64,000 bases of DNA from Methanobrevibacter millerae (GCF_900103415.1 NZ_FMXB01000013.1:1-64000), one strand, 5' to 3'. Positions 29,052 to 64,000 are shown, counted from the stretch's first letter. Notes: generated from the sequence alone by a model not told the origin. Program-made: numbers and translations.

Positions 29052-29074
29052 TAGATGTATTTAAAATACATCTA
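29052..29074 (-). terminator. Terminator containing the stop of the large adhesin
   Basis: Ten-bp stem TAGATGTATT/AATACATCTA, loop TAA; the stop codon of the minus-strand gene (29072-29074) is the outer end of the stem. A T-rich run follows on the minus strand. The smaller adhesin has nearly the same structure. Confidence 0.7.
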
Positions 29075-37294: not shown

Positions 37295-37447
37295 ATATAA
37301 TTCACCATTATTATTTATCTGATTTGAATTTTAAATATATTTTCATTTGATTTGGTGCTTTTGGTGAATTATTTTTTTGAAAAGAATTTATTTTCAATTG
37401 TAAAGTTATATTTTTATTAAATATTGTTCAGTGAAAAAAGAGAAAAA

Positions 37448-37468
37448 TAGATGTTTTAAAAACATCTA
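37448..37468 (-). terminator. Terminator containing the stop of the second adhesin
   Basis: Nine-bp stem TAGATGTTT/AAACATCTA, loop TAA, with the stop codon (37466-37468) at its end, and a T-rich minus-strand run after it. Confidence 0.7.
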
Positions 37469-40400: not shown

Positions 40401-40735
40401 TTAATTACAATGTTGTCTGCACCCTCATTAATGAAAAATATCCTTGCTGAATTTTTTGCATCAATCGTGTGACCATTGCCGTCTATTGTCACACTTTTGG
40501 TTGTTGAATAGATTGCAATGCCGTTTGTTGGATCATCTTCGCTCCATTCATAATCACATTCCAGTACTATCGTCTCTCCGTTCTCAGCTGACCAGATTTC
40601 GCTTTGAAGATTTCCAAAACTTTGCTTTTCAGTTGACAGCATTGTTTGATTATCGCTATCTGCCGCTGATACAATGGATAATGAAATAAAAAATACTAGA
40701 AAAATCAATATTGCGAAATTAAACTTCCTCTTCAT
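37466..40735 (-). CDS. Adhesin-like surface protein, 1089 residues
   Basis: Shorter relative of the preceding adhesin. A signal peptide (residues 1-24, FAILIFLVFFISLSIVSA) is followed by beta-helix repeats (about 60-480; GGAIYL, NN.F..N), then Ig-like domains with the K-YYG/GPERLEM type of start (near 510, 745), and a C-terminal set of FNINGVFYxR domains ending ...NKIIISP. Its last ~170 residues closely parallel those of the 2740-residue protein. Gap to that gene is 171 bp and a separate promoter is likely. It too shows no clear anchor. Confidence 0.85.
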   Translation of the reverse strand: MKRKFNFAILIFLVFFISLSIVSAADSDNQTMLSTEKQSFGNLQSEIWSAENGETIVLECDYEWSEDDPTNGIAIYSTTKSVTIDGNGHTIDAKNSARIFFINEGADNIVIKNLNFINGNSNGGGAILWRGSNGILENNQFISNTGSEIGGAVYWDAPNGIIRNNQFNGNSATKQSGGGIYVSAKSTNIIITDNQFTNNKANTCGGGVGWSGAYGTLSNNVFTGNTVGESGGALYFDGANSKVYGNTFSNNQATGSGGAIYLKCDGVEFYQNTLTSNYANTGGAMRWNGNKGTATNNVFSNNRAGNNAGALFWNGHDAVLKYNQFTGNTAQTTSSGALMLNGNNFQVISNSFTRNSAQGYGGAIYTTGSDNKLIDNSFTQNSAAKNGGAFYFDGPNGQATNNRFVENSASGAGAIRWEGSGASITGNIFSGNRVTSGNIIYGDGSGATVSSNTFYNSKESDNCIRWNSGDARITNNVYKQGTPIDDSVVTISCNGLDKYYGGSERLEIAVLDKNNVGISNVDVIIYINGVSNTRTTDIEGKISMGINLNPGQYPTKITVNKYSKEKDVRVNVKSTISGNDAQGEYKNTQYSARFLNTNGNPLPDRQVEFNINGNPYKSTTNSNGLATLNVDLDCGNYIITAINPVNNEKISNNVQINPIASQTTISATTGADVAAIKAKINSTTASGKVIFTKDNDNYEVEVKNGEANLYIYDLQPGRYFARATYLGDKNHLGSDSEDIIFSVMEYEEVYLLTDNLTKYYKGPERLEMLIIDDNKSPVPNVNITIIINGQKMVRTTNDKGEASIAVNLNSGNYTANIVASKYNLTENVTIEIKSTIEGSDITKIHRNGTQYYATFRDTNGDYLEEGTTIKFNINGVFYERQILNDEGLARLNINLDQGEYILTAINPVNNEQHSNTITVIPRIVNNNDLVKYYRNDSQYYVTLLDDKGNPVKAGQEVTFNINGVFYQRKTNEDGVARLNINLAPGDYVITVNYKNCLVSNKIKVLPVLSAKNVKMNYKDGTKFIVKLVDGTGNAYAKQNIEFNVNGVFYIRTTNETGFASLNINLMPGEYIITSTYNGASISNKIIISP

Positions 40736-41414: not shown

Positions 41415-41466
41415 TTACTATTTTTTTTCGTAATGTTTTTAACCATCTTTTAACAGAGTGTATTAT

Positions 41467-42234
41467 ATGTTTGAAACTTGGGATGAAAAATGGTTTTTAT
41501 TAAAGCAATTAGTCAAAAGGGATTTCACTACAAAATATAAGGAATCTTTTTTAGGTATTATTTGGAGTTTTTTAAATCCATTATTAATCATGATTATTTT
41601 TACTGTGATATTTTCTGTTTTGTTTAGGCGGGAAATTCGTAATTTTCCAGTTTATTTTCTAACAGCCAGAATCATATATCAATTTTTTGTAGATGCTACT
41701 GGTGGCGCTATGAGATCTATTAGAGCTAATAGATCAATTTTAACTAAAATTTTTGTTCCAAGATATATGTTTGCTATTTCATCCATTTGTTATGAATTTA
41801 TAAATTTTTTAATATCATTAATAATTTTATTTGGGGTCATGATAGTCACTGGCGAACATTTCCATTTAATGATGTTTGCTTCAATCATTCCATTTATTTT
41901 TCTTATCATAATGATTTTTGGTGTAGGTTTAATTTTAGCAGTATTAAACACATATTTCTCTGATATTGGACATTTTTATTCCATATTTGCTTTAATATTA
42001 ATGTATGCTTCTGCTTTATTTTATCCAATTGAAATTGTACCTGCTAATGTTCAGGCTATTTTTACTTTAAATCCTTTATATATTGCAATATCATGTTTTA
42101 GGGATGCTATTATGTATCATGTATTTCCAGATATTTTGTCATTAATGTATCTTGCCGTATTTTCAGTAATGTTATTTGGTGTAGGATTTTTATTATTTAG
42201 AATTCATGAGAAAAAATTAGTTTTACAACTTTAA
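41467..42234 (+). CDS. ABC-2 type polysaccharide export permease (Wzm/TagG-like)
   Basis: About 255 residues with six membrane helices, of the ABC-2 permease family that exports O-antigen, teichoic acid and similar polymers. The N-terminal amphipathic part (FLLKQLVKRDFTTKYKESFLGIIWSFLNPL) is the family's hallmark. The frame is open from a GTG at 41458; ATG 41467 is chosen. The ATPase gene follows 13 bp later, so the two form one transporter. It heads the surface-polymer island. Confidence 0.88.
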   Translation: MFETWDEKWFLLKQLVKRDFTTKYKESFLGIIWSFLNPLLIMIIFTVIFSVLFRREIRNFPVYFLTARIIYQFFVDATGGAMRSIRANRSILTKIFVPRYMFAISSICYEFINFLISLIILFGVMIVTGEHFHLMMFASIIPFIFLIIMIFGVGLILAVLNTYFSDIGHFYSIFALILMYASALFYPIEIVPANVQAIFTLNPLYIAISCFRDAIMYHVFPDILSLMYLAVFSVMLFGVGFLLFRIHEKKLVLQL

Positions 42235-42247
42235 TTGGGGAGTTAAT

Positions 42248-43966
42248 ATGAAAAAAAATAATAATTATGGATTATATTTTAATTCAAAACAGGATGGAAA
42301 GAAAATTATTAATCACCATTTTAATTTTAATAATATTGATGATGAAAAGTTTAAAGAAGAAGCATTGTTTATTTATAATTCTATAAATGAAGGAAAAATA
42401 GATTTAAATCCTGATGAAAAAGAAGAAATATTTCAAGAACTAGAATTAATTTTAAATCATTTTAATTCATCCCAATCAAATGAAAAATCTAAAGATTCAC
42501 TAATTTCTAAAAATTTGGATAATGAAATTAATTCATATTTTAGAGTTAATCAAAATATGTCTGAGAAATATTCTTCTTCTGAAAATAGTTTTAATCCCCA
42601 TGTTGAATCCATGGCTTTAAGTAATGATTCTGAGAATAAATCTTTGTTGGAGGGGAATATTGATAATAAAAACAATGAAAAATCATATATTGGGGATTTC
42701 ATTTCTGTGGAAGATGATGTTTCTGGTGAGTTATCTGTTGTTGATGTTGAAGATGAGGAAGTTCCTACTGATGATGAAGTATTTGATGAACCATTGGAGA
42801 TTAACATTGAAAAAGAGTTACCAATTCCAGAGGAAGGTACGGATTATGTGCTGGAAGATGCTACTGGTGAAGATGTAGCAACTAATGTTGTGGGAGAGGA
42901 ACCAACTGAAACACAGAAGGTGTTAGATGAAAAATCTGGTGAGTTATCTGTTGATGATGCATTAAATGAGTTAGTCGATGATGAATCTTCTATATTAAAT
43001 AATGATTTAGTTATTGAAGATTCTTTTGATGATTCTATTTCTGTGGAAGATGATGTTTCTGATGAGTTATCTGTTGTTGATGTGGAAGATGATGTTTCTG
43101 ATGAGTTATCTGTTGTTGATGTGGAAGATGATGTTTCTGATGAGTTATCTGTGGATGATGCATTAAATGGTTTAATTGAAAATTATTCTAGTGAAGTAGC
43201 GATTAAAGTTGAAAATTTATCAATGCAATTTAAAGTTTCTAAAGATAAAATTGATACATTAAAAGAACTAATTATTAGGACAATTAAACGAAATAAATCT
43301 GAATCTAAAATTGTTACTGCATTGGATGGTATTTCTTTTGAAATTCCTAAAGGGGATCGTGTGGGAGTCATTGGTTTTAATGCGGCTGGAAAAAGTACTC
43401 TTCTTAAAGTTTTAGCAGGTGTTTATGATGCTACTGGAGGTACTATTGAAACTAAAGGAAAAATTGCACCATTACTTGAATTAGGTGCAGGTTTTGATTT
43501 TAATTATACTGGGAAAGATAATATATTTTTATATGGTGCATTTTTAGGTTATTCTGAAGATTTTCTAAAAGAAAGATATGATGAAATATTAGAATTTTCA
43601 GAGTTAGGGGATGCAATTAATTATCATGTTAAAACATATTCTTCAGGTATGAGGGCAAAATTAGCTTTTTCAATTGCAACTATTGTTGAACCAGATATTT
43701 TAATATTGGATGAGATTCTATCTGTAGGAGATATTAAATTTAGAAAGAAAAGTTCTGATAAAATACGTTCTTTAATAAATTCTGGTATTACAGTTTTACT
43801 TGTTTCACATTCTGTTGGTCAAATAAGAGATTTATGTAATAAAGCAATTTGGATTGATGAAGGTAAATTAATAATGTATGGTGAAGTAAATGAAGTTTGT
43901 GATGCTTATATAAAAGCAGCAGCTAATGCTACTAAAGATCAATTAGAAAATATACAGTTGAATTAA
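42248..43966 (+). CDS. Polysaccharide export ATPase (Wzt/TagH-like) with long acidic N-terminal extension
   Basis: 572 residues. The C-terminal ~255 are the ABC ATPase: IKVENLSMQFKV at about 318, Walker A GFNAAGKST near 376-384 (family usually GxNGAGKST), signature SSGMRAKLAFS near 470 and Walker B DILILDE near 489, and an H-loop LLVSHS. The first ~315 residues are unlike normal ABC ATPases: an acidic low-complexity region with a 13-residue repeat (DDVSDELSVVDVE) in three tandem copies from residue 268 (43049 on). The function of the extension is unknown. Partner of the permease just upstream. Confidence 0.85.
   Translation: MKKNNNYGLYFNSKQDGKKIINHHFNFNNIDDEKFKEEALFIYNSINEGKIDLNPDEKEEIFQELELILNHFNSSQSNEKSKDSLISKNLDNEINSYFRVNQNMSEKYSSSENSFNPHVESMALSNDSENKSLLEGNIDNKNNEKSYIGDFISVEDDVSGELSVVDVEDEEVPTDDEVFDEPLEINIEKELPIPEEGTDYVLEDATGEDVATNVVGEEPTETQKVLDEKSGELSVDDALNELVDDESSILNNDLVIEDSFDDSISVEDDVSDELSVVDVEDDVSDELSVVDVEDDVSDELSVDDALNGLIENYSSEVAIKVENLSMQFKVSKDKIDTLKELIIRTIKRNKSESKIVTALDGISFEIPKGDRVGVIGFNAAGKSTLLKVLAGVYDATGGTIETKGKIAPLLELGAGFDFNYTGKDNIFLYGAFLGYSEDFLKERYDEILEFSELGDAINYHVKTYSSGMRAKLAFSIATIVEPDILILDEILSVGDIKFRKKSSDKIRSLINSGITVLLVSHSVGQIRDLCNKAIWIDEGKLIMYGEVNEVCDAYIKAAANATKDQLENIQLN
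43049..43165 (+). repeat. 39-bp tandem repeat in the ATPase gene
   Basis: Three copies (43049-43087, 43088-43126, 43127 on, the last diverging near its end) coding for DDVSDELSVVDVE. The first two copies are nearly identical at the DNA level, so copy number may vary. Confidence 0.8.
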
Positions 43967-43976
43967 GGTAATAATA

Positions 43977-46900
43977 ATGCACAAGTATAAATTTTCTATT
44001 ATTACATGTTTTCGCAATTCTGAAAATTATATAAAAAAATCTCTTGAATCTATAATTAACCAAAGTATAGGCTTTGAAGAAAATATTCAATTAATTCTGG
44101 TTAATGATGGAAGTACTGATTATTCGATGCAAATTGCTAATGAATATGTGGAAAAGTTTCCCAATAATATTACATTATTATTTCAAAATCATTTGGGAAT
44201 ATCTTATGCACGGAATTTAGGATTAAAACATGCTGAAGGTAAATACATTAATTTTTTAGATATTGGTGGCCATTTATCTGAAAATGCTTTGAAAGATATT
44301 TTTGATTTTTTTGAAGAAAATTTTGATGAAATCGATGTTGTTTTCATTCCCAAAAATTATATTGGTAGATTAAATGATACTGATGAAACTACTCTTAATT
44401 TTCATGAATCATTTATCGGGAATTTAGAAAGGTTTCCTAACAATCCTTTGATTTCTATTTCATATTCATTTATTAAATATGAGTTGATAAATGATTATTA
44501 TTTTGAAAATAATTTAATATGTTCTGAAGATTTATTGTTATTAAATAAATTATTATTAAACAAAAAAACTTATGGATTTATTCCTTTATTAAATAGAAAA
44601 AGACAGAATTTAGAAAATATTTTAGAAAAATTTTCATTCAATAATAAATGTTACACATATCGTATTAAAAAATATTATATCAATCTTTCAAAAAGATGTT
44701 TAGCTGAATATGGTAATGTTCCTAAATTTATTCAATATTCATTACTCTATGATTTATTAACTGTTCTTAAACAACCAGAATTAAACATTTCAGAAAATAA
44801 ATGTGATTTTTTTAGGACTTTAAATGAATTTTTACAGTTTATTGATGATGATGTAATCTTTGACAATGAATATGTTGATGAAAAATTGAAATACTTTATA
44901 TTATATCTTAAATATGGGGATATTGATTATGAAATTCATGATTTCAATGTAATAGCTAAAATTGAGGGTTATACATTAGATGAATTAAATATTCATAAAT
45001 TTTGGTATGATAAAATAGAACTGGATGATGATAATTTACATATTTCTGCAGTATTTAATAGTTATTTTGACATAGAGGATATTTCAATAGTCGCCGTTAA
45101 AGAAAAAAATGGTGGATATGAATTATTTAAAGCAGCATTTATTGAAAATGATAAACATAAAAATACTAGATTTTTATCTGTTGATTGGAGTTATGCTTAT
45201 CCATTTAATATCAAAATCCCTATTGATGATTTAATCGATTCAAAAATAAGGATTCGTGTAAATTACCATAAGAATGGTGATAACACTGATTTTGATTGGG
45301 ACAATATTTCTTTTTCATATTTGGATGGTAACTTTACCCATAACTGTATCTTTTCTGATTATGTAAATAATTTTGTTAAAGATGATTTAAGAGTATCTTT
45401 TGAGGAGAGATCTTTTTTCATTAAAAGGGGATATAAATTTTCAGTAGTAATGGCTATTTATAATACTGAAGACTATGTTGGTGAAGCTATTGATTCAATC
45501 ATAAATCAAAGTATTGGATTTGAAGATAATATTCAATTAATTTTAATAGATGATGGAAGTACGGATAATACGAATAATATACTTTCAGAGTACCAAAAGC
45601 AATATCCAAATAATATTATTCTTTTAACTCAAGAAAATCAGGGCCAGGCAACTGCACGTAATAATGGATTAAAATATGTGCAAGGTAAGTATGTAAACTT
45701 CCTGGATAGTGATGATTATTTATCCGAAGATGCCTTGGAAAAAGCATTCGCATTTTTAGAAGAGCATGAAAATGAAATTGATTTTGCATCCATTCGCCAA
45801 AAGCATTTTGGTAGAAAAGATAGTCAACACATGTTAAATTATAGGTTTAATGAAGGGGATAGGATTATAGATTTAATCGAAGAACCCAATAATCCCCAGC
45901 TTGCTTGTAATGCAGTATTTTTTAAGAATAATTTATTTAATAAATACAAATTCCCTGCAAATGTTGTGTCTTCAGAAGATGCGATAATGGTGAATAAGAT
46001 TTTATTCGAAAAGAAAAAATATGGTGTTTTAGAAGAACCTGTTTATTATTATAGGAAACGTGAGGATTTAACTTCTACAATAGATTTAGTAACCACTCAA
46101 AAGGAATTTTTCACGGATAAGTTAAAATATTATTATTTGGAATTAATAAATTATTCGCTTGAAAAAGAAGGTGAAGTTCTTGAATTCATTCAATATATGC
46201 TGGCATATGATTTACAGTGGATGTTACAAGAACCAAATGTTGATATTTTGGAAAATGAAACTAAAATAAGTGAATTTTGGTATTATTTAAATCATGTTAT
46301 TAATTTCATAGATTATGATGTTATTGTAAATAATAGAAATATTAATATACGTTTATTAAAACAATTCTTTATTTATCTTAAAAATGATGATATTTACACG
46401 GAGATTGCTCAAAATACTGCATTAATAAAGACCAAAAATTATGGGTTAGATGATTTCCAAGACCATAATATTTGGTTAGATATAGTGGAAATTCATAATG
46501 GATTTTTTAATATTTCGGGATTATTATATTCTCATTTTAACACGAATCATGTTTCAATTGGTGCTGTTAAAGAATCTTTGGATGGGACATACCAGTATTA
46601 TGGTGGAAAAGATGTTAACTACACTTCTCGCCAAGATTTAACTTATTTGGGTATTACTTGGGAGTATAGACATACTTTTGATATTAAAGTCCCTATTTCA
46701 GAAGGTGAAGTTTCTAATATTAAGGTTAAAGCAACATATCATATAAATGGTGATAAAACTGATTTTAGTAAATCAAATGTGATAACGGCTTTTCATAATT
46801 TGGATTTCAATAAACATGCAGGTTTTTCAAATACCAGTAATTATTTAATTAAAGATTCTATGATGGCTTTATTTGAAGACAATAAATTTTTAATACGTCC

Positions 46901-48119
46901 ATATTCATATACTCGGATGATTAAATATGAATGTGATGTTTTAGCAAGAATAATTAAAGAACATCAGAATCATTTCTTATCTGCAGTATTTTATAGATTT
47001 TTATACTTAATTTCATACCCATTTGTTTCTCGCAAACATAAAAAGAATCCTACATTTATATTTATGGATAGAATTGAATCTGCTGATGATAATGCATTTT
47101 ATCTTTTCAAATATGCAGTATCTCAAAAAGATAATGTGAATAAATATTTTGCATTATCTAAAGATAGTAAAGATTTCTCTAAAGTTTCTAAAGTGGGAAA
47201 AGTATTAAAATATGATTCATTTAGACATAAAATGAAATATCTTTTTGCAGATAAAGTTATATCTTCACATACTTATCAATCCACAATTAATCCATTTTTC
47301 ACTGATGATGAGGAAATATATTTATATTCAAGCATAACAAAACCAGATTCATATTTCCTTCAACACGGGGTTGCAAAAGAGGATTTATCAAGTTGGTTTT
47401 CCAAATATGATAAAAATGTACGTTTAGTGTTAACCTCAGCAGATTCCGAGCGAGAATCATTTTTACAGGAAGGATATAATTATGATGAGGATATCGTAAA
47501 AGCATTTGGTCTTCCTCGTCATGATTATCTTTGGAGTGATGATAAAAAGCAAATCTTAATAACTCCAACGTGGAGAAAAAATTTAAGGGGATCTAAAAGT
47601 CTTTTTATGGGTTCTGATTATTTCAAATCATTAAATGAACTTTTACATGATGAAAAATTAATTAATGTTGTGGAAAAATATGGTTTTAAGATTGTTTTTA
47701 AACCTCATCCCGAATTAGAACGATTTGTTAATGATGATGAGAGATATTTGGATTTATTTGAAATTGATGAAAGAATTAAAATAGTTAATGAGGTATCTTA
47801 TCAGAAATTATTTGCTGAATCATCTCTTTTAATAACTGATTTTTCATCAGTATTCTTTGATTTTACTTATTTGAAAAAACCGCTCATTTATTATCAGCCA
47901 AATGATGACTATCATTATGAAGAGGATTATTTTGATTATGAAACTATGGGATTTGGTGATGTAATCACAGAAAAAGATATTCTAATTAATAAAATTGAGT
48001 TTTATTTAAATAATGGTTGTATTATGGAAGAGGAATATCAAAATCGAGCAGATACATTTTTCAAACATCATGACGGTAAAAACTCTGAAAGAATCTATGA
48101 TTGGATAAAAAATCATTAA
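43977..48119 (+). CDS. Bifunctional-looking GT2-GT2-TagF surface-polymer transferase, 1380 residues
   Basis: Three parts. Residues ~1-480: a GT2 glycosyltransferase fold plus a beta domain; the NDGS segment is present (N43, D44) but the DxD-position reads DIGG (D95-G98) instead of DSDD, so this copy may not be catalytic. Residues ~485-965: a second GT2 with intact IDDGS and LDSDDYLS, and its own beta domain. Residues ~975-1380: a CDP-glycerol glycerophosphotransferase (TagF) domain with FLQHG, FKPHPE and LITDFSSVFFDF segments. Units one and two look like a tandem duplication. Likely polymerises or extends a polyol-phosphate-like chain at the membrane; actual donor is unknown. Very AT-rich. 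Confidence 0.8.
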   Translation: MHKYKFSIITCFRNSENYIKKSLESIINQSIGFEENIQLILVNDGSTDYSMQIANEYVEKFPNNITLLFQNHLGISYARNLGLKHAEGKYINFLDIGGHLSENALKDIFDFFEENFDEIDVVFIPKNYIGRLNDTDETTLNFHESFIGNLERFPNNPLISISYSFIKYELINDYYFENNLICSEDLLLLNKLLLNKKTYGFIPLLNRKRQNLENILEKFSFNNKCYTYRIKKYYINLSKRCLAEYGNVPKFIQYSLLYDLLTVLKQPELNISENKCDFFRTLNEFLQFIDDDVIFDNEYVDEKLKYFILYLKYGDIDYEIHDFNVIAKIEGYTLDELNIHKFWYDKIELDDDNLHISAVFNSYFDIEDISIVAVKEKNGGYELFKAAFIENDKHKNTRFLSVDWSYAYPFNIKIPIDDLIDSKIRIRVNYHKNGDNTDFDWDNISFSYLDGNFTHNCIFSDYVNNFVKDDLRVSFEERSFFIKRGYKFSVVMAIYNTEDYVGEAIDSIINQSIGFEDNIQLILIDDGSTDNTNNILSEYQKQYPNNIILLTQENQGQATARNNGLKYVQGKYVNFLDSDDYLSEDALEKAFAFLEEHENEIDFASIRQKHFGRKDSQHMLNYRFNEGDRIIDLIEEPNNPQLACNAVFFKNNLFNKYKFPANVVSSEDAIMVNKILFEKKKYGVLEEPVYYYRKREDLTSTIDLVTTQKEFFTDKLKYYYLELINYSLEKEGEVLEFIQYMLAYDLQWMLQEPNVDILENETKISEFWYYLNHVINFIDYDVIVNNRNINIRLLKQFFIYLKNDDIYTEIAQNTALIKTKNYGLDDFQDHNIWLDIVEIHNGFFNISGLLYSHFNTNHVSIGAVKESLDGTYQYYGGKDVNYTSRQDLTYLGITWEYRHTFDIKVPISEGEVSNIKVKATYHINGDKTDFSKSNVITAFHNLDFNKHAGFSNTSNYLIKDSMMALFEDNKFLIRPYSYTRMIKYECDVLARIIKEHQNHFLSAVFYRFLYLISYPFVSRKHKKNPTFIFMDRIESADDNAFYLFKYAVSQKDNVNKYFALSKDSKDFSKVSKVGKVLKYDSFRHKMKYLFADKVISSHTYQSTINPFFTDDEEIYLYSSITKPDSYFLQHGVAKEDLSSWFSKYDKNVRLVLTSADSERESFLQEGYNYDEDIVKAFGLPRHDYLWSDDKKQILITPTWRKNLRGSKSLFMGSDYFKSLNELLHDEKLINVVEKYGFKIVFKPHPELERFVNDDERYLDLFEIDERIKIVNEVSYQKLFAESSLLITDFSSVFFDFTYLKKPLIYYQPNDDYHYEEDYFDYETMGFGDVITEKDILINKIEFYLNNGCIMEEEYQNRADTFFKHHDGKNSERIYDWIKNH

Positions 48120-48132
48120 TGTTGGTGATTTT

Positions 48133-50766
48133 ATGGGATCTAAAGATTTTAATTCAATATATTTTTCTATTGTAATGGCATGTTATAATGTAGAAGATTA
48201 TGTTTGGGAAGCTATAGATTCTGTAATTAATCAAAAATTTGATTTTAAGAATCATGTTGAAATAATATTAGTGGATGATGGTAGTTTTGATAAAACTTCA
48301 GATATTTGTAAAGAATATGTTGAAAAATATCCGGATAATATTAAATATTTTTATAAAGAAAATGGTGGTCAGGCTTCTGCAAGAAATTTTGGAATCAAAC
48401 ATGTGGCAGGTAAATATGTTAACTTTTTAGATGCTGATGATAAATTAATGGAAGATACATTAGCTAATGTTTTTGATTTTTTTGAAGAAAATTACTCTGA
48501 AATTGATGTGGTTTCTGTTCCAATGTATTTTTTTGAAAGACAAACCGGTGACCATCCGCTTAATTATAAATTTGAGGAAACTAAAGTAGTTGATTTAAAT
48601 GTACAATGGAATTATCCTCAATTAGCAACTAATTCTGCTTTTATTAAAAAAGAAGTTTTAAATGATTTTCAATTTGATACTAATTTAATCAGCTCTGAAG
48701 ATGCAATAATGGTTAATAAATTATTATTGGAGAAAAAAGCTTATGGTGTAGTTGAAAATGGGGGTTTATGCTATAGAAAACGTTTTGATGAAACTTCTAC
48801 CATTGATACATCAAAATTGGATAAGCGCTTTTATCTTGGCCGTTTGAATGGTTTTTTTAAGGAATTGGTTGATTATTCACTTAATAAAGTTGGATATGTG
48901 CCTAATTTCATTCAATATGTTATTGTTTATGATATCAAATGGATGTTGATGTCTGAAGAGAGATTTGATGTATTAAATGATGAAGAGTTAATTGAATTTA
49001 ATAATGGTGTTAATTATGTATTTAAATACATCAATGATGAAGTTATTGATTGTCATTTAAAAAAAGACCCTTGGAAAATAAGAAAATGTATTTATGAATT
49101 AAAGTATGGTGAAAGTGAAATTCTTCAAAAGGATGATGATATTGTATTGTGTACTAATAATGTTATTTTAGACGAATTATCGATTCATAGATTTTATTTG
49201 GACATAATAGAAATTAAAAATAATTATTTGTTTATTTCTGGTTTTTTAAAATCCTATTTTAAAAGTTCTGATGTTGATATCATACTAGTTAGTAAAAGTT
49301 CTAATGGTGAGGAAATATTTTCATCAAAAACTTTTAACTATTTTAATAGAAAAGAAAGTAAAATATCTGAATCATATATTAATTTTGATTTTAAAGTCCC
49401 TTTATCAATTAATGAGGAATATGAGTTTAATATTCAAGTTAAATCTAAAGAATTTGGTGATTCATTTGAGCTTCCGATTAGTTTTTTAAATTATGCTCGA
49501 TTGTCTGAAGTGAGTAATTATGCAGTTTGGGATAACTATATGATTCATTTTAAAAATAACACTATTTTTATCATGCAGTACTCTTATTCTAAAATGTTTA
49601 AATGGGAAATTAGAATTTTATTGGTGATTTTAAGACATATTCCATATAATTGGTTTTCCACATTGTTTATCAGATTTATTTATTTGATTCTATTCCCTTT
49701 TTTTAAGGATAAAAAGATTTGGATGTTCATGGATCGTCGTGAAAGTGCTGATGATAATGCAGAACATCTTTATAGATATTGTAGCAACATTGATGATGGC
49801 ATTAATAAATATTTCACTTTATTTAAAGATTCAAAAGATTTCAAGAGATTATCTTCATCACTAAAAAATATAATTTCTTTTTATTCAATAAAACAAAGGA
49901 TTTTATATTTGTTTTCTGATATGATTATTTCATCACATCCTGACGAGTTTGTTTTAAATCCATTTTGGGGGAAAAATTCAAAATTATATTCTGGTCTCAT
50001 TAATTCTAAAAAAATATTCCTGCAGCATGGAATTACAAAAGATAATGTGTCATTATGGCTTAGAAAATATGATAAGAATTTAGACATGTTAGTCACGGTT
50101 TCTGAAATGGAAGCACAATCCTTTTTAGAATATGAATATAATTATGATAAAGACGTAATAAAAGTATTGGGATTTCCAAGATTTGATGATTTGACTGATG
50201 CTTCTGATAAAAAGCAGATTTTGATAATGCCTACTTGGAGGAGAAGTATTGACCATCTCAAGAATGAACAAATTATCAAATCACTTTATTTCCAAAAAAT
50301 GAATTCATTATTTAACAATGAACGATTCATTAAATTGGCACAAGACAATGATTATGATATTATAATCAAACCTCATCCTAAAATTATTGATATCATCAAC
50401 TTATTTGATACAAATGATTATGTATATATAGATAAGACGAGCGGTTATCAAGATTTATTCAATAATTCTTCTTTATTAATCACAGATTATTCAAGTGTTG
50501 CATTTGATTTTGCATACATCAAAAAGCCAGTAATTTATTATCAATACGCAGATGACTATCATTTTGAGGAAACCTTCTTTGATTATGAAACAATGGGTTT
50601 TGGAGAAGTAATTTCAGATGAAGATGAATTAATCAACCTTGTTGATAAATATATAATAAATGATTGTGAAATGAAAGAAGAATATAAAAATCGTGTCGAT
50701 AACTTTTATAAATTTAAAGATAAAAATAATTGTAAACGTGTTTATGAAGAAATTAAAAAATTATAA
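48133..50766 (+). CDS. GT2-TagF surface-polymer transferase, 877 residues
   Basis: Same layout as the second and third parts of the preceding protein: GT2 domain (about 10-300) with VDDGS and LDADD, beta domain (~340-470), and TagF domain (~500-877) with FLQHGITKD, IKPHPK and LITDYSSVAFDFAYIKKP. The two proteins are clear paralogs (13 bp apart, same strand). A plausible job is adding sugar and polyol-phosphate units to one polymer. Donor and acceptor cannot be read from the sequence. Confidence 0.82.
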   Translation: MGSKDFNSIYFSIVMACYNVEDYVWEAIDSVINQKFDFKNHVEIILVDDGSFDKTSDICKEYVEKYPDNIKYFYKENGGQASARNFGIKHVAGKYVNFLDADDKLMEDTLANVFDFFEENYSEIDVVSVPMYFFERQTGDHPLNYKFEETKVVDLNVQWNYPQLATNSAFIKKEVLNDFQFDTNLISSEDAIMVNKLLLEKKAYGVVENGGLCYRKRFDETSTIDTSKLDKRFYLGRLNGFFKELVDYSLNKVGYVPNFIQYVIVYDIKWMLMSEERFDVLNDEELIEFNNGVNYVFKYINDEVIDCHLKKDPWKIRKCIYELKYGESEILQKDDDIVLCTNNVILDELSIHRFYLDIIEIKNNYLFISGFLKSYFKSSDVDIILVSKSSNGEEIFSSKTFNYFNRKESKISESYINFDFKVPLSINEEYEFNIQVKSKEFGDSFELPISFLNYARLSEVSNYAVWDNYMIHFKNNTIFIMQYSYSKMFKWEIRILLVILRHIPYNWFSTLFIRFIYLILFPFFKDKKIWMFMDRRESADDNAEHLYRYCSNIDDGINKYFTLFKDSKDFKRLSSSLKNIISFYSIKQRILYLFSDMIISSHPDEFVLNPFWGKNSKLYSGLINSKKIFLQHGITKDNVSLWLRKYDKNLDMLVTVSEMEAQSFLEYEYNYDKDVIKVLGFPRFDDLTDASDKKQILIMPTWRRSIDHLKNEQIIKSLYFQKMNSLFNNERFIKLAQDNDYDIIIKPHPKIIDIINLFDTNDYVYIDKTSGYQDLFNNSSLLITDYSSVAFDFAYIKKPVIYYQYADDYHFEETFFDYETMGFGEVISDEDELINLVDKYIINDCEMKEEYKNRVDNFYKFKDKNNCKRVYEEIKKL

Positions 50767-52516: not shown

Positions 52517-52975
52517 ATGGAAAAGAAATCTTTAATTTTGATTATTGTTTGCATAATTGTATTTTCTTTTGTATTTTTGACATATGCAGGTATTTTTAAT
52601 CAAGAAGAGTCTCTTCAAGTAGGTGAAATTAATTTTAAACTTCCTGAAGGTTATAAATATGTGGGTTTTGTTAAACAAGGATTTCCAAAAACAACTAATG
52701 GATTAGATTCAATTTATTTTGATTTTTATAATGATACGAATATTTCCAATCATGTTAAAGATTTTGTGAATGAATGTGATTCGAAAAATAGATCTGTTGC
52801 TGTATCAAATTTCACAACTAATGATATTTTTGTTTATAAAGCTGTTAGCAGTACTAATTCAAGCCATTATTGGTTTGTATATGGCGACAAAACATATACA
52901 TTTTTCACTTGGAAAGAAACATTTAAAATAGATGATATTGCTCATTATTTAATAGATTCATCAGTAAAAAATTAA
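52517..52975 (+). CDS. Small exported or membrane-anchored protein, function unknown
   Basis: 152 residues beginning with a hydrophobic segment (residues 5-26, LILIIVCIIVFSFVFLTYAG), either an uncleaved anchor or a signal peptide. The outer part has aromatic, Asn- and Ser-rich text and several NxT/S sites. No family recognised. AGGTGA (52505) precedes the ATG. It lies between two convergent/divergent gene groups and is likely its own transcript. Confidence 0.6.
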   Translation: MEKKSLILIIVCIIVFSFVFLTYAGIFNQEESLQVGEINFKLPEGYKYVGFVKQGFPKTTNGLDSIYFDFYNDTNISNHVKDFVNECDSKNRSVAVSNFTTNDIFVYKAVSSTNSSHYWFVYGDKTYTFFTWKETFKIDDIAHYLIDSSVKN

Positions 52976-58269: not shown

Positions 58270-59640
58270 ATGGACAAGGATATTAAATTTTTAAAAGAGG
58301 AAATAAAAAAATTAAATAATCAAATCAATAATCTCAATAAAGTTCAAAAGAAAAATGAAAATACTTTAGATTCACATTACACTCTTTTAAATACATTATA
58401 CTTAAATTTTAATCTTAAACCAAAAGGAGTACTTAAAGGTACACAGGATTTATGTTTATCTTTATTAGATTTTATTTCTAATGTTTGCATGAAATATGAT
58501 TTGGAATGGTGGTTAGATTATGGAAATTTATTGGGTGCTGTTAGAGATAAAGATTATGTTCCTTGGGATGATGATATTGATATTGGCATGACAAGGAAAG
58601 ATTGTTTAAAATTTTTAGAAGTTATTGATGATGAAATTAAATATTATCATTTAGATGATATTCTTTTTGTTGTTCCACAAAAAATTATTAAAGAAAACAG
58701 CATTATTGCATTCACACAAATATCTATAAAAAAAGATGGAGGATTATATGCGGGGCTTGATGTTTTTCCAATTGATTTTATTCGTAGTTATCCCGAAAAT
58801 GTTGAAAAAGAATTTTTTAATGCTAAATGTGAATATCATATAAATCTTTTAAATGGAATGGATAAAAAAGATGTAATTAATAAATATTATGATGATTATA
58901 ATTTATCATATGAATATCAGGACTTTTTTATTCCATGTATTGAAACTTATTGGGGGAATACACGAAAATTCACAGTTTTTGATTCAGAAAAACTTTTTCC
59001 CTTAAAAAAAATTGAGTTTCATGGGAAAATATATCCATGTCCAAACAATCCTCATTATATTACATCAAAAAACTATGGAAAAGACTATAAAAATATTCCT
59101 AGAAATGTTAAATTACATAGAAGAGTAAGTGATTTAAAACAGAAAAAAAATGTAAATATGAATTTTAAAAATTTTTTAAAACGATTTGAAGAAGTTAATG
59201 ATGAATTTTCATCAAAAATTCTGCATTCAAAAAATGTAGTTTATTTTAGTAAGAATCAAGATAGATATTTGAATATTAATCAGGAAATACCTAAAAATCA
59301 TGTGATAAAATTTAACTTTAATAGACAATCTTCAAAAAATTGTCGGGGATATATTCAAATAGGAACTGATTGGAATAATAGTATTTTTATTGGACAAATA
59401 GGTGCTGGAAATACATTTGGAATATGGTTAAGAAAAAATGGCATAACTGATTATCATAATACTCCGATTCCCTCAAATTCATTTTTAGGTATTGAATATA
59501 CTTATAAAGATAATACTCATACTTTAAAAGTTGATGATGAAATCGTTCTTCAAATTACAAGTAAAAATTATGAATATAATAATTTATTGAATATAATAGT
59601 TGATAATAATTCTAAAATAACTGATTTAGTAATTTATTGA
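58270..59640 (+). CDS. LicD family phosphotransferase with C-terminal extra domain
   Basis: 456 residues. After an N-terminal coiled coil (~1-40) comes the LicD domain: LEWWLDYGNLLGAVRDKDYVPW and then the metal-binding DDDID (D100-D104). LicD proteins move phosphocholine or related groups from a CDP-carrier onto surface glycans. From about residue 340 a separate ~115-residue beta-rich domain begins (KNCRGYIQIG, NNSIFIGQI), shared with the next protein. Here the donated group could be a phosphonate, because a phosphonate module follows. Confidence 0.85.
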   Translation: MDKDIKFLKEEIKKLNNQINNLNKVQKKNENTLDSHYTLLNTLYLNFNLKPKGVLKGTQDLCLSLLDFISNVCMKYDLEWWLDYGNLLGAVRDKDYVPWDDDIDIGMTRKDCLKFLEVIDDEIKYYHLDDILFVVPQKIIKENSIIAFTQISIKKDGGLYAGLDVFPIDFIRSYPENVEKEFFNAKCEYHINLLNGMDKKDVINKYYDDYNLSYEYQDFFIPCIETYWGNTRKFTVFDSEKLFPLKKIEFHGKIYPCPNNPHYITSKNYGKDYKNIPRNVKLHRRVSDLKQKKNVNMNFKNFLKRFEEVNDEFSSKILHSKNVVYFSKNQDRYLNINQEIPKNHVIKFNFNRQSSKNCRGYIQIGTDWNNSIFIGQIGAGNTFGIWLRKNGITDYHNTPIPSNSFLGIEYTYKDNTHTLKVDDEIVLQITSKNYEYNNLLNIIVDNNSKITDLVIY

Positions 59641-59715
59641 TTAAATATTACAAATTATATTTATTTCTTGAAAAAATGTTTTAAAATCAAAAAATTGCAT
59701 TAGAAGTGATGAAAT

Positions 59716-61122
59716 ATGGAAAACTTAGTTGATTATATTATTAAATTAAATATGGATCAAATTGAAGATTATAAATTTCCATTAGATATACCTTTTGGAT
59801 TAGAAATTAATTATAAAAATGTAAAATATTGTTTAATTGTTCGATTTTCATCGAAAAACAAAAATCTAATCTGTTGCGGGCCAGGAGCCCATGCAAGAGA
59901 TGAAAGGACTTCGAAAGGAATTTTAAAAACCCCTCCTTTTTTTCATCGATGGTCTTGGTATAAATATTTTGAAGAATCTTTCATAGCATATGCAGATCCA
60001 ATTTTCTTTTATGATGATTATATACGTTTAGGATGGTTTGTTGGTGATAAAAAACAATGGTATTTAGAAACTCTATCAATAATTATAAAAAAACTTTCTA
60101 TTAATCAGGGAATTATGCATGAAAATATATTGTTTTATGGTAGTTCTGGGGGCGGATTTACTTCAGTAGGGCTTGGAACATTAATTAAAGGATCAAAAGT
60201 TCTTATAAACAATTCCCAACTTAATGTGATGAATTATCATGAAACACATGTGAATAATCTTTTTAGAATATTATATGATGAGTTTCCAAATTTATCAAAA
60301 AAAGAAATTATTAATCTTATTGATTATCGATTAGATACAATTAAATTATTCAACAGAGAGAAATATATGCCTCCAATTACGTATTATGTTAATATTTTAT
60401 CACAGCATGATATTTATAACCATTGCATACCCTTCATTAAAGAGATATGTGATTTGGAATATTTTGAAAACAATTTTCAAATAAATTTTTATAAAGAAGT
60501 AAAAAAAAGACCCCATAGTTCATTATCAGTAACAGAGTCAATAAAAATTGTTAAAAATTTTTGCAAACAACATTTATATAATAATAAATATAATTATGAT
60601 ATTTTTAATAATTTAATTGAAGAGAATGATTTCTTAAAAAATAAAAATAAATATTTGGTAGAAGAAAATAAATTATTAAATCAAATGTTATATGATTATG
60701 GAAAATATGTCTATTTTAAATCAAAATTTGATACTGGTTCAACTAAATTAAATTTATTATTGCCCATAAATTATTCATTAAAATTTCAGTTGAATAAAAC
60801 CAAATCAAAAAATTGTAGAGGTTATATCCAGATAGGTATTAATTGGAATAATAGTATTTTTATTGGACAAATTAGTGATGAAGTATTTGGAATTTGGCTA
60901 AGAAAAGATGGTGAAACTATGATGAAAAATTCCGAAATTCCATTAAATAAAGATAATATTATAGAATATTCTTATCATGATAATATACATATTTTTAAAG
61001 TTAATAATAAAATTTTATATTCTAATGAAACGACGAAATATAATTACAATAAATTACTTACAATTGTTGAAGATGAAAATACTTTTTTAACAGATTTAAA
61101 AATTTATACTGAATATAAATAA
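59716..61122 (+). CDS. Alpha/beta hydrolase-like protein with the same C-terminal domain
   Basis: 468 residues. Residues ~1-290 look like an alpha/beta hydrolase: nucleophile elbow Y141-G-S-S144-G-G-G, with a candidate acid and histidine further on (HPHSS-like text, RPHSSLS near 267). Weakly similar proteins accompany polysaccharide acetylation systems, so esterase or acyltransferase activity on the surface polymer is possible. A coiled coil (~300-325) leads to a C-terminal domain (~347-468) that copies the one in LicD, including a stretch of 31 identical bases. Confidence 0.65.
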   Translation: MENLVDYIIKLNMDQIEDYKFPLDIPFGLEINYKNVKYCLIVRFSSKNKNLICCGPGAHARDERTSKGILKTPPFFHRWSWYKYFEESFIAYADPIFFYDDYIRLGWFVGDKKQWYLETLSIIIKKLSINQGIMHENILFYGSSGGGFTSVGLGTLIKGSKVLINNSQLNVMNYHETHVNNLFRILYDEFPNLSKKEIINLIDYRLDTIKLFNREKYMPPITYYVNILSQHDIYNHCIPFIKEICDLEYFENNFQINFYKEVKKRPHSSLSVTESIKIVKNFCKQHLYNNKYNYDIFNNLIEENDFLKNKNKYLVEENKLLNQMLYDYGKYVYFKSKFDTGSTKLNLLLPINYSLKFQLNKTKSKNCRGYIQIGINWNNSIFIGQISDEVFGIWLRKDGETMMKNSEIPLNKDNIIEYSYHDNIHIFKVNNKILYSNETTKYNYNKLLTIVEDENTFLTDLKIYTEYK

Positions 61123-61369
61123 TTTTTTTAAATAATATTTATAGATACTCATAAGGGTAATTATTGTAAATTATTTCAAGAATGATTTGTTCTAATTATT
61201 TTTAGAATGGAAATTTTAATGTCTATTATACTTTAAAATTATATCAATTTTCTAAAAACCATAATTAATATTTATTATTACAATTAATTATTTATAATTT
61301 AATCACAAATATTTACTTATATGATGGAGTTTTAATAAAAATTCAATGCATATTTTTGGAGTGATTAAC
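61123..61369 (+). promoter_or_regulatory. AT-rich gap before the phosphonate module
   Basis: 247 bp, over 80% A+T, no ORF of interest. Possible TATA-like stretch near 61290 (ATTTATAATTTAATC). A GGAGTGAT ribosome site at 61358 sets the start of the next gene. Probably holds the promoter for the phosphonate genes. Confidence 0.4.
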
Positions 61370-62071
61370 ATGAAAATCATAATATTAAATTCTGGTTTGG
61401 GTTCTAGATTAGGCAATTTAACTAAAAATCTTCCAAAATCTTTAGTCAATATTAATAATGATGAAACAATTTTTTCAAGAGCTATTAATATTTTATCTAA
61501 TTACTCTAAAGATTTTATTATTACAACCGGATATTTAAATAATGTTTTAATCAAATATTCAAAAAATAATTATTCTAATTTGAATTTTACTTTTGTCCAT
61601 AATTCTGTTTATGATAAAACTAATTATATTAAATCTTTAGATTTGATTGATGAAATTAATGAGGATATTATTCTCTTACATGGGGATTTAGTATTTTCTA
61701 GTGATGTTGCAGAAAAAATAATCTATGCAAAAGAATCCTCAGTTGTTATTGATTCATCAATTGATTTACCTAAAGATGATTTTAAAGCTAAAATTGTAGA
61801 TAATAAAGTAAATTATATTTCTACTAAGTATTTTGGTGATGATGCTGTGGCTTGCCAACCATTTTACAAATTAAAAAAAAATGACTGGAAAGAATGGAAA
61901 AATAAAATTCATGAATTCTGCCAGCAGGGAAAAACTGATGTTTATGCAGAAAATGCATTAAATACTATACTTAATCAAATTACTATTCGTCCATTAGATA
62001 TTATGGGGGATTTATGTACAGAAATTGATGATCAAAATGATTTAAAGAGGGTGAAGGAGTTATTAAAATGA
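61370..62071 (+). CDS. LicC/PntC-like nucleotidyltransferase
   Basis: 233 residues of the sugar-phosphate/choline-phosphate nucleotidyltransferase fold: LNSGLGSRLGNLTKNLPKSLV (about 6-26) is the NTP-binding loop with the catalytic Arg and Lys, and LLHGDLVFS near 103 has the metal-binding Asp. Such enzymes make CDP-choline (LicC) or CMP-AEP (PntC) for LicD-type transfer. A phosphonate acceptor is likely because it overlaps the PEP mutase gene by 4 bp (ATGA). Start is ATG 61370 after GGAGTGAT; the frame is open to 61346. Confidence 0.78.
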   Translation: MKIIILNSGLGSRLGNLTKNLPKSLVNINNDETIFSRAINILSNYSKDFIITTGYLNNVLIKYSKNNYSNLNFTFVHNSVYDKTNYIKSLDLIDEINEDIILLHGDLVFSSDVAEKIIYAKESSVVIDSSIDLPKDDFKAKIVDNKVNYISTKYFGDDAVACQPFYKLKKNDWKEWKNKIHEFCQQGKTDVYAENALNTILNQITIRPLDIMGDLCTEIDDQNDLKRVKELLK

Positions 62072-63363
62072 AAACTGTTTATATTGCTATTAGTGCAGAT
62101 ATATTGCATCACGGGCATATTAATTTAATTAAAAAAGCTTCAGAATATGGAAATCTTATTGTTGGTGTTTTAACTGACGAAGTTGTAGCTACATATAAAA
62201 GATTTCCTGTATTGGATTATGAACAACGTACTTTCATAATTAAAAATATTGAGGGAGTTTCAGATGTTGTTCCGCAATATACTTTGGATTATACGGAAAA
62301 TTTAAAAAAATATAGGCCAGATTATGTATTCCATGGTGATGATTGGAAAAAAGGTGTTCAAAGCCAAATCAGACAAAATGTAATAAACACACTAAGTGAA
62401 TGGAATGGAGAATTAATAGAAATTCCATATACTGAAGATATAAGTATTGATCAAATTAATAACCTAGTTAAAAATGCAGGTTCTGTTCCAGAATCAAGAA
62501 GAGGTAAATTAAAAAAATTAATTTCGCTTAAACCTATTGTTCGTACAATGGAAGCTCATAATGGTCTTTCTGCATTAGTTGTTGAAAATGCAAAAGTCGT
62601 TAAGGATGAAAAAATTAATTCTTTTGATGCAATTTGGGTTAGTAGCTTAACAGACAGTACTGCTAAAGGAAAACCCGATATAGAACTTGTAGACATGACC
62701 TCTAGAATTAATACAATCAACGAAATAATGGAAGTTTCATCAAAACCAATTATTTTGGATGGGGATACTGGAGGATTAATTGAACATTTTGTTTTTAATA
62801 TTAAAACAATTGAAAGAATGGGCGTTTCAGCAATTATTATTGAGGATAAAATAGGATTAAAGAAAAATTCGCTATTTGGTACTGATGTCGAGCAAACACA
62901 AGATTCAATCGAAAACTTCTGTGAAAAAATAAAAGCAGGTAAAAAGGCCTTAATCACTGATGAATTTATGATTATTGCAAGAATTGAAAGTTTAATATTA
63001 AAACAAGGTATGGATGATGCAATCAATCGTGCTAAAGCATATATTAATGCGGGAGCTGATGGAATCATGATACATAGTAGGGAAAAAGAACCTGATGAGA
63101 TATTTGAATTTTGTGAAAAGTTCAACGAATTTGCACCTAAGGTACCTTTAGTTGTTGTCCCAACATCATTTAACCAAGTTTATGAAGATGAATTCGCTAA
63201 AAAAGGAGTAAATATAGTTATTTATGCAAATCATTTAATTAGGAGTGCTTATCCTTCCATGATGGAAACTGCAACAAAAATACTTGAAAATGAACGTTGC
63301 AAAGAAGTTGATGATATTTGTTTGCCAATTAAAGAAATACTTACTTTGATTCCTGACGAGTGA
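62068..63363 (+). CDS. Cytidylyltransferase-phosphoenolpyruvate mutase fusion
   Basis: 431 residues, two domains. Residues 1-~135: a HxGH cytidylyltransferase (ISADILHHGHINL, H14-H17) of the TagD/GCT type with RPDYVFHGDDW near 85. Residues ~150-431: phosphoenolpyruvate mutase (AepX/PepM), which rearranges PEP to phosphonopyruvate, the first step of nearly all C-P bond natural products. The D-G-D of ILDGDTGG is at 231-233 and the diagnostic EDKxxxxxNS at 259-268 (EDKIGLKKNS), separating it from isocitrate-lyase-type relatives. It overlaps the LicC-like gene and is followed 5 bp later by the decarboxylase gene. Confidence 0.92.
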   Translation: MKTVYIAISADILHHGHINLIKKASEYGNLIVGVLTDEVVATYKRFPVLDYEQRTFIIKNIEGVSDVVPQYTLDYTENLKKYRPDYVFHGDDWKKGVQSQIRQNVINTLSEWNGELIEIPYTEDISIDQINNLVKNAGSVPESRRGKLKKLISLKPIVRTMEAHNGLSALVVENAKVVKDEKINSFDAIWVSSLTDSTAKGKPDIELVDMTSRINTINEIMEVSSKPIILDGDTGGLIEHFVFNIKTIERMGVSAIIIEDKIGLKKNSLFGTDVEQTQDSIENFCEKIKAGKKALITDEFMIIARIESLILKQGMDDAINRAKAYINAGADGIMIHSREKEPDEIFEFCEKFNEFAPKVPLVVVPTSFNQVYEDEFAKKGVNIVIYANHLIRSAYPSMMETATKILENERCKEVDDICLPIKEILTLIPDE

Positions 63364-63368
63364 TTAAG

Positions 63369-64000
63369 ATGATTAATGTTGAAGATTTTGTCAAATACTT
63401 AAAAAATATTAACATAGATTTCTTTACGGGAGTTCCAGATTCACAATTATCCTCTTTTGCAGATTATGTTGAAGAAAATTGTGAAAATATTATTGCAGCA
63501 AATGAAGGTAATGCTTTAGCCATTGCTAGTGGATATAATTTATCAACAGGAAATTATCCTTTAGTTTACTTGCAAAATTCCGGATTAGGAAATATTGTTA
63601 ATCCAGTTACTTCTTTGACTCATAGTGAAGTTTATTCGATTCCTGTTGTATATTTAATTGGATGGAGAGGCCAACCAGGGGTTCATGATGAACCTCAGCA
63701 TATCAAACAGGGAGCAATTACTTTAGATCTACTAAATTTACTGGATATTAAATATACTGTTATTTCAAATGAATCTAATTTTGATGAACTTAAAGAAATA
63801 TTTGAAAATGATTTTATTAATCAATTAAATTGTGGAAAAAGTGTGGCTGTTGTTGTTTCTAAAGGTGCATTCGAAGAATATAAAATTAAAAAAGAAAATA
63901 ACAATATTTTAAGCAGAGAAAAGGCTATCCAAACTATTGTTGATTTTTTGTCTGAAAAAGATATGGTCGTTTCCACTACAGGCAAGTCTTCAAGAGAATT
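63369..64000 (+). CDS. Phosphonopyruvate decarboxylase, 5' part
   Basis: Thiamine-diphosphate enzyme that pulls the unfavourable PEP mutase reaction by turning phosphonopyruvate into phosphonoacetaldehyde. 210 codons are present and the frame is open to the window edge. Family features: FTGVPDSQLSSF (about 19-30), the cofactor-activating glutamate in NEGNALAIASGY (near 50), QNSGLGNIVNP, and WRGQPGVHDEPQH (near 100). The thiamine-pyrophosphate GDG motif should lie beyond the edge. An AEP transaminase may follow it. Confidence 0.9.
   Translation, partial: MINVEDFVKYLKNINIDFFTGVPDSQLSSFADYVEENCENIIAANEGNALAIASGYNLSTGNYPLVYLQNSGLGNIVNPVTSLTHSEVYSIPVVYLIGWRGQPGVHDEPQHIKQGAITLDLLNLLDIKYTVISNESNFDELKEIFENDFINQLNCGKSVAVVVSKGAFEEYKIKKENNNILSREKAIQTIVDFLSEKDMVVSTTGKSSRE

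Follow-up and report, generated by a model that had tools for sequence, protein, structure and literature searches.

A phosphonate operon at the edge of a surface-polymer locus in Methanobrevibacter millerae raises the question of which phosphonate is made there and to what it is attached. The window, meaning the whole stretch of DNA analyzed (64,000 nucleotides), covers positions 1-64000 of contig C13 (79,294 bases; 2.72-Mb genome), and the reading was extended past position 64000 to the contig end at 79294. Methanogenesis genes and close named relatives support the assignment to Methanobrevibacter. The branch toward 2-aminoethylphosphonate (AEP) requires a transaminase, while the branch toward 2-hydroxyethylphosphonate (HEP) requires a reductase. 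The original prediction, made from the window alone, had favored AEP and expected its transaminase past the window edge. When the sequence was read onward, the next gene was found to encode an iron-dependent alcohol dehydrogenase (Fe-ADH). Hence, no transaminase lies downstream, yet another tailoring gene does, and the idea of a phosphonate-decorated polymer survives in altered form, with HEP rather than AEP strongly supported as the product by sequence comparison.

Four adjacent genes form one operon, in which the gene of a LicC-like nucleotidyltransferase comes first and neighbors are joined by 4-base overlaps or gaps. The following identities and order were observed directly:

61370-62071, + strand: LicC/PntC-like nucleotidyltransferase of the PF00483/PF12804 fold, about 233 amino acids (PF00483 above cut-off)
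62068-63363, + strand: Fom1-like bifunctional cytidylyltransferase (CyTase)-phosphoenolpyruvate (PEP) mutase, 431 amino acids (PF01467 and PF13714 above cut-off; TIGR02320)
63360-64487, + strand, crossing the window edge at 64000: phosphonopyruvate decarboxylase, 375 amino acids (TIGR03297)
64492-65571 of the contig (L002:1492-2571), past the window edge: Fe-ADH, 359 amino acids (PF00465 and PF25137 above cut-off)

The LicC-like gene, the PEP mutase gene, and the start of the decarboxylase gene, as well as a LicD gene farther upstream, were all located where the original prediction had placed them. The first two biosynthetic genes are real, as both exceeded curated cut-offs: the mutase scored 425 bits against TIGR02320 (cut-off 319.6) and carries the EDKxxxxxNS motif as EDKIGLKKNS at residue 259 of the fusion, and the complete 375-amino-acid decarboxylase scored 457.9 bits against TIGR03297 (cut-off 312.5). 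A genome-wide search identified no second match to the PEP mutase family, and PhnJ was absent from the genome when catabolism by C-P lyase was considered. Chance can be set aside, because the curated matches extend over the full length and relatives repeat the four-gene order.

The Fe-ADH occupies the place where a transaminase had been expected. Its closest NCBIfam model, although it scored under the cut-off, is TIGR03405, a phosphonate-linked Fe-ADH family, and it keeps the Asp/His metal-ligand motifs of TM0920. In the Fe-ADH tree, it clustered with other mutase-linked Fe-ADHs, and no other Fe-ADH copy was found in the genome. The protein is a candidate phosphonoacetaldehyde reductase.

The fused CyTase domain points in the same direction. 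The fusion consists of the CyTase at approximately residues 1-135, including Lys44 and Tyr75, and the PEP mutase at approximately residues 145-431. Of the two cytidylyltransferases predicted to lie side by side, one was confirmed as a LicC-like nucleotidyltransferase, while the second is not a gene of its own but the N-terminal domain of the 431-amino-acid PEP mutase protein. The best solved match of this domain was the Fom1 CyTase 5x3d (163 bits), with 70 of 133 residues identical (53%), and the HxGH, YKRxP, TLDYxxNL, and HGDDW motifs are kept, placing the domain by sequence in the Fom1 (HEP) type. Fom1 produces CMP-HEP, the cytidine monophosphate (CMP) conjugate of HEP (PMC6697681), and by analogy the fused CyTase would do the same.

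A comparison of 99 distinct related loci, collected from a scan of named genomes with typing of the neighboring genes, revealed a separation of the two branches. A reductase was found beside the fusion in 62 loci and an AEP transaminase in nine, while no locus contained both; the chance of such zero overlap is approximately 7e-5 if the loci are independent. CyTase residue 44 was the most telling column of the entire fusion alignment: it was Lys, as in Fom1, in 61 of the 62 reductase loci (Arg in the remaining one) and in none of the nine transaminase loci. Position 75, which is Tyr here, was Gln in seven of the nine transaminase loci. The residue-44 pattern is suggestive, rather than proof, of substrate selection.

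The four-gene order was repeated in 11 further loci from Methanobrevibacter, Methanosphaera, and a third genus of the family. The mutase fusion was 73-87% identical across these 11 archaeal loci, one of which has no LicC-like gene and another of which leaves its contig ahead of the Fe-ADH. Across the phylum, the fusion was present in 28 of 152 genomes and three of 20 genera. Fusion, decarboxylase, and reductase were also found together on a Woesearchaeota contig (L107:339-1625), so that by sequence the HEP-type trio is present in a second archaeal lineage. Additionally, mutase matches occurred among phage records, on two unannotated fecal contigs.

A second phosphonate operon type was observed in Methanobrevibacter (L054-L068 and L070; e.g., L063:10768-16464). 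Its CyTase-PEP mutase is 53-60% identical to the one described here and has Asn at position 44, and the operon also encodes a metallophosphatase-like protein, an epimerase-like protein, a nucleotidyltransferase-like protein, an NAD-binding protein of 393 amino acids, a decarboxylase, and LicD. Neither a reductase nor a transaminase was recognized among its genes. One genome, G066, holds both operon types.

The LicC-like gene probably begins at 61370 rather than 61346: the preferred start stands behind GGAGTGATTAAC, with GGAGTGA as a ribosome-binding-like site, and agrees with the lengths of homologues. The best solved relatives of its product were LicC (1jyk), IPCT (2xme), and PntC (6pd1), the last being an AEP cytidylyltransferase. 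In the tree of these proteins, it fell in a 28-member clade (Shimodaira-Hasegawa-like approximate likelihood ratio test, 99) with no transaminase-linked members, outside the transaminase-linked PntC-like proteins, as all nine such sequences were placed elsewhere. The protein is thus a probable cytidylyltransferase of a reductase-linked subfamily, and it is possibly a second or alternative cytidylyltransferase for HEP.

These data bear directly on the proposal that a transaminase from elsewhere in the genome forms AEP, which the LicC-like enzyme would activate to CMP-AEP and LicD would transfer, with the Fe-ADH serving another purpose. The distant relationship of the LicC-like protein to PntC 6pd1 would agree with it, as would a class V aminotransferase on contig C37 and a phosphonate cluster in the Methanobrevibacter relative G083, where a 621-amino-acid fusion of PntC and an AEP transaminase-like domain (L066:7456-9321, - strand) replaces the reductase. 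This fusion resembles the Treponema denticola enzyme, and it represents an AEP version of the cluster within the same genus. However, the C37 protein, the sole full-length PhnW/AepZ-like protein in the genome, scored 228 bits (cut-off 361), and matches of this kind under the cut-off were present in all 14 control genomes, Methanocaldococcus jannaschii included; no match to the AEP transaminase model TIGR03301 above its cut-off was found in the whole genome. AEP clusters contain a transaminase and no reductase, and both CyTase residue 44 and the LicC-like clade side with the reductase group. The AEP route is consequently regarded as highly improbable, and CMP-AEP and AEP as end products were given up in favor of HEP.

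The question of where HEP is used leads to the genes upstream of the operon:

41458-43966, + strand: ABC-2 permease and TagH/Wzt-like ATPase (PF01061; galactan-export Wzt and TagH models, below cut-offs), by sequence a probable polymer exporter
43977-48119, + strand: GT2-GT2-Glyphos_transf fusion of the TagF type (PF00535 twice; PF04464, 144 bits), a candidate polymer builder or alternative CMP/CDP-dependent transferase
48133-50766, + strand: GT2-Glyphos_transf fusion of the TagF type (PF00535; PF04464, 171 bits)
58270-59640, + strand: LicD-family transferase (PF04991, 81.3 bits against a cut-off of 22.6; motif GNLLGAVRDKDYVPWDDDIDIGM)
59716-61122, + strand: alpha/beta-hydrolase-like protein with a GSSGGG motif (no Pfam match; low-confidence model)

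The LicD gene lies just upstream of the operon, and a spacer of approximately 250 bases separates the operon from the LicD and hydrolase-like genes. The hydrolase-like gene, which is absent from the original prediction, stands between the LicD and LicC-like genes. Both GT2-TagF fusions, which confirm the predicted TagF-type polymer genes, and the TagGH-like exporter are approximately 10-20 kb upstream. Downstream of the operon are genes for a nucleotide-sugar dehydrogenase, WecB, UDP-galactopyranose mutase, and glycosyltransferases. Four elements of the original prediction were supported: the synthesis of a phosphonate, its nucleotidyl activation, a setting among polymer genes, and an archaeal host. 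Small proteins with a single N-terminal membrane segment repeatedly adjoined phosphonate or polymer loci (window 52517-52975; L002:6311-6823; L049:9250-9702; L050:13618-14064), and two big repeat-rich adhesin-like proteins of 2740 and 1089 amino acids are encoded beside the polymer locus (window 29072-40735, - strand).

The proposed pathway would begin with the rearrangement of PEP to phosphonopyruvate by the mutase, followed by decarboxylation to phosphonoacetaldehyde and reduction of the latter to HEP by the Fe-ADH. The fused Fom1-type CyTase would then convert HEP to CMP-HEP, with the LicC-like enzyme possibly acting as a second or alternative catalyst, and the LicD-type transferase at 58270 or a TagF-type transferase of the adjoining polymer locus would move the phosphonyl-HEP group onto a surface glycopolymer. 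A CMP-HEP pathway feeding the decoration of a surface polymer is considered a likely function of the operon. The acceptor, the transferase, and the cell-surface location may be inferred only by analogy with bacterial parallels, which suggest such a transfer.

The parallels come from bacterial reductase clusters, where the first gene after the trio encoded Glyphos_transf in nine of 39 cases and LicD in seven. As a control, 71 genes lying farther off in these loci included two for LicD and no more than two for Glyphos_transf, a difference from 16 of 39 with p of approximately 1e-5. In the window, the LicD protein keeps the GxLLGAVRxxxxxPWDDDxD motif of its family, and has a coiled-coil-like N-terminus and a beta-rich C-terminal module. 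Its adjacency to the operon makes it a candidate, not proven, phosphonyl transferase.

Several findings weigh against the proposed pathway. The Fe-ADH scored 256 bits against TIGR03405, under the cut-off of 423.7, and is 30% identical to a Segatella copri protein annotated as phosphonoacetaldehyde reductase; because of this score and this identity, its substrate rests on context. On the mutase tree, there are only about two switches between the reductase and transaminase labels, so that few independent events underlie the Lys44 signature. LicD is common in genomes without phosphonate genes, and it was in the scanned neighborhood of only five of the 11 close archaeal loci. Of 139 genomes in the family, 57 encode LicD homologues, and 40 of these 57 have no such PEP mutase. 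LicD was thus rejected as a constant partner of the operon, with which it is weakly associated (17 of 28 genomes with the mutase vs. 40 of 111 without; p = 0.03).

The hydrolase-like gene was similarly rejected as a member of the phosphonate pathway, because it also adjoins LicD in genomes that have no mutase. Such pairs were found repeatedly in the family (G010:C98, G016:C12, G113:C106, G124:C92), mutase-free genomes included, and the pair is treated here as a separate, uncharacterized module. The mean predicted local distance difference test (pLDDT) score was 50 for the LicD model and 54 for the hydrolase-like model; the latter, used as a hint only at this low confidence, matched esterases and a capsule O-acetyltransferase. 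Together with the GSSGGG motif, it suggests an alpha/beta-hydrolase, which may act as an esterase or O-acyltransferase. A beta-rich C-terminal module of approximately 120 amino acids is common to the LicD protein and the hydrolase-like protein; it is 53% identical between them (window 59278-59640 and 60748-61119) and was not found in the 60 other archaeal genomes searched. A Methanosphaera LicD (L074:15689-17260) bears an additional N-terminal module of its own. The extra modules on LicD and hydrolase-like proteins are possibly glycan-binding add-ons.

Other fates of HEP were also considered. HEP could serve as the head group of an archaeol-based phosphonolipid instead of a glycan tag, as two of the 39 downstream genes in bacterial clusters matched CDP-alcohol phosphatidyltransferase and the LicD protein weakly matched the lipid cholinephosphotransferase model NF045866, under its cut-off. 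However, no CDP-alcohol phosphatidyltransferase gene was recognized near the archaeal operon, whose neighbors are glycan genes, and a lipid product appears very unlikely.

HEP could likewise be a precursor of a soluble, secreted antimicrobial small molecule. HEP is common to the fosfomycin and dehydrophos routes. Antibiotic phosphonates have been proposed for Methanocorpusculum vombati, also a gut methanogen, in which genes for a PEP mutase, a decarboxylase, and a reductase form a cluster (PMC10035134). Against this, no typical tailoring genes for small-molecule phosphonates were recognized adjoining the operon, both flanks consist of polymer, glycosyltransferase, UDP-sugar, and export genes, and the homologous bacterial clusters run into LicD/TagF-type transferases. 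A secreted small molecule is considered unlikely. The PPM-PPD-adh1 cluster of M. vombati is similar in that mutase, decarboxylase, and predicted phosphonoacetaldehyde reductase are clustered in a gut methanogen, but the cluster there was read as one for antibiotic synthesis; the likeness drawn here is one of published description.

With decoration of a glycopolymer as the preferred function, an unlikely variant is that HEP does not form a terminal tag. Instead, the TagF-type enzymes would polymerize CMP-HEP into a teichoic-acid-like chain with a phosphonate backbone, or CMP-HEP would supply phosphonodiester bridges that link glycan units. Backbone or bridge use is conceivable because HEP carries a free hydroxyl group that AEP lacks. 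If this were true, archaea and possibly gut bacteria would have a wall polymer whose backbone contains C-P bonds.

Known systems share parts of this arrangement. The first steps of fosfomycin synthesis in Streptomyces wedmorensis resemble it in the CyTase-PEP mutase fusion, in a decarboxylase and reductase that give HEP, and in the shared Lys44 and Tyr75. Unlike the fosfomycin cluster, the locus is linked with polymer genes and has a LicC-like protein as its second nucleotidyltransferase, and no genes for the Fom3 methyltransferase or Fom4 epoxidase were recognized among the scanned operon neighbors. The Pnt pathway with PntC, for example in T. denticola and Atopobium rimae, includes a mutase, a decarboxylase, a LicC-like nucleotidyltransferase, and a LicD-like neighbor, and some Pnt clusters also hold a fused plus a separate nucleotidyltransferase (PMC6697681). 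In contrast, a reductase stands here for the AEP transaminase, and the LicC-like protein falls in a different clade; activity with AEP has been shown for PntC proper.

Another parallel, found through mutase matches in plasmids, is the S. copri locus (NZ_CP085933), where a CDP-alcohol-type transferase gene and O-antigen genes come after those for the same three biosynthetic steps. Its RefSeq-annotated order is aepX, aepY, phosphonoacetaldehyde reductase, CDP-glycerol glycerophosphotransferase, O-antigen polymerase, and flippase. However, the reductase there comes from another subfamily, and a LicC-like gene is absent in the stretch shown. HEP-bearing phosphonoglycans occur in Glycomyces and Stackebrandtia.

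For M. millerae ZA-10, a four-gene cluster including PEP mutase and phosphonopyruvate decarboxylase (IE19DRAFT_01711-4) was described in the 2016 genome paper, which listed it as unique in comparison with strain SM9, suggested wall-polysaccharide modification from its location, and reported no methanogen matches (PMC4987999). This cluster may be the locus of the window itself. Unlike that account, the present analysis adds a likely product, a candidate reductase, and the Fom1 reading, and relatives are now found in three genera. The pathway logic was already known; what is new is this member with its HEP branch, the specificity signature, and the spread.

The archaeal operon grouped with Lachnotalea glycerini, at 74% identity, in the mutase tree (support 98). 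The Fe-ADH tree likewise joined the archaeal protein to Lachnotalea, along with two further Bacillota (support 98). Both placements fit a gene transfer between gut Clostridia and methanogens, in either direction.

The walls of Methanobrevibacter ruminantium are reported to contain phosphate at teichoic-acid-like levels in an unidentified polymer (PMC2812497), and HEP has been found ester-linked to polysaccharide in marine dissolved organic matter (PMC9381506). The reading presented here predicts that surface polymers of methanogens in the rumen and gut contain HEP esters, which are readily measured. The combination of Lys44 and Tyr75, as opposed to a non-Lys residue with mostly Gln75, suggests a two-residue marker that may separate HEP from AEP loci in many genomes. 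With gut Clostridia as the nearest bacterial relatives, the locus points to surface chemistry having been exchanged between bacteria and methanogens. Such an exchange would matter for phage and host recognition, as well as for methane mitigation aimed at the cell surface.

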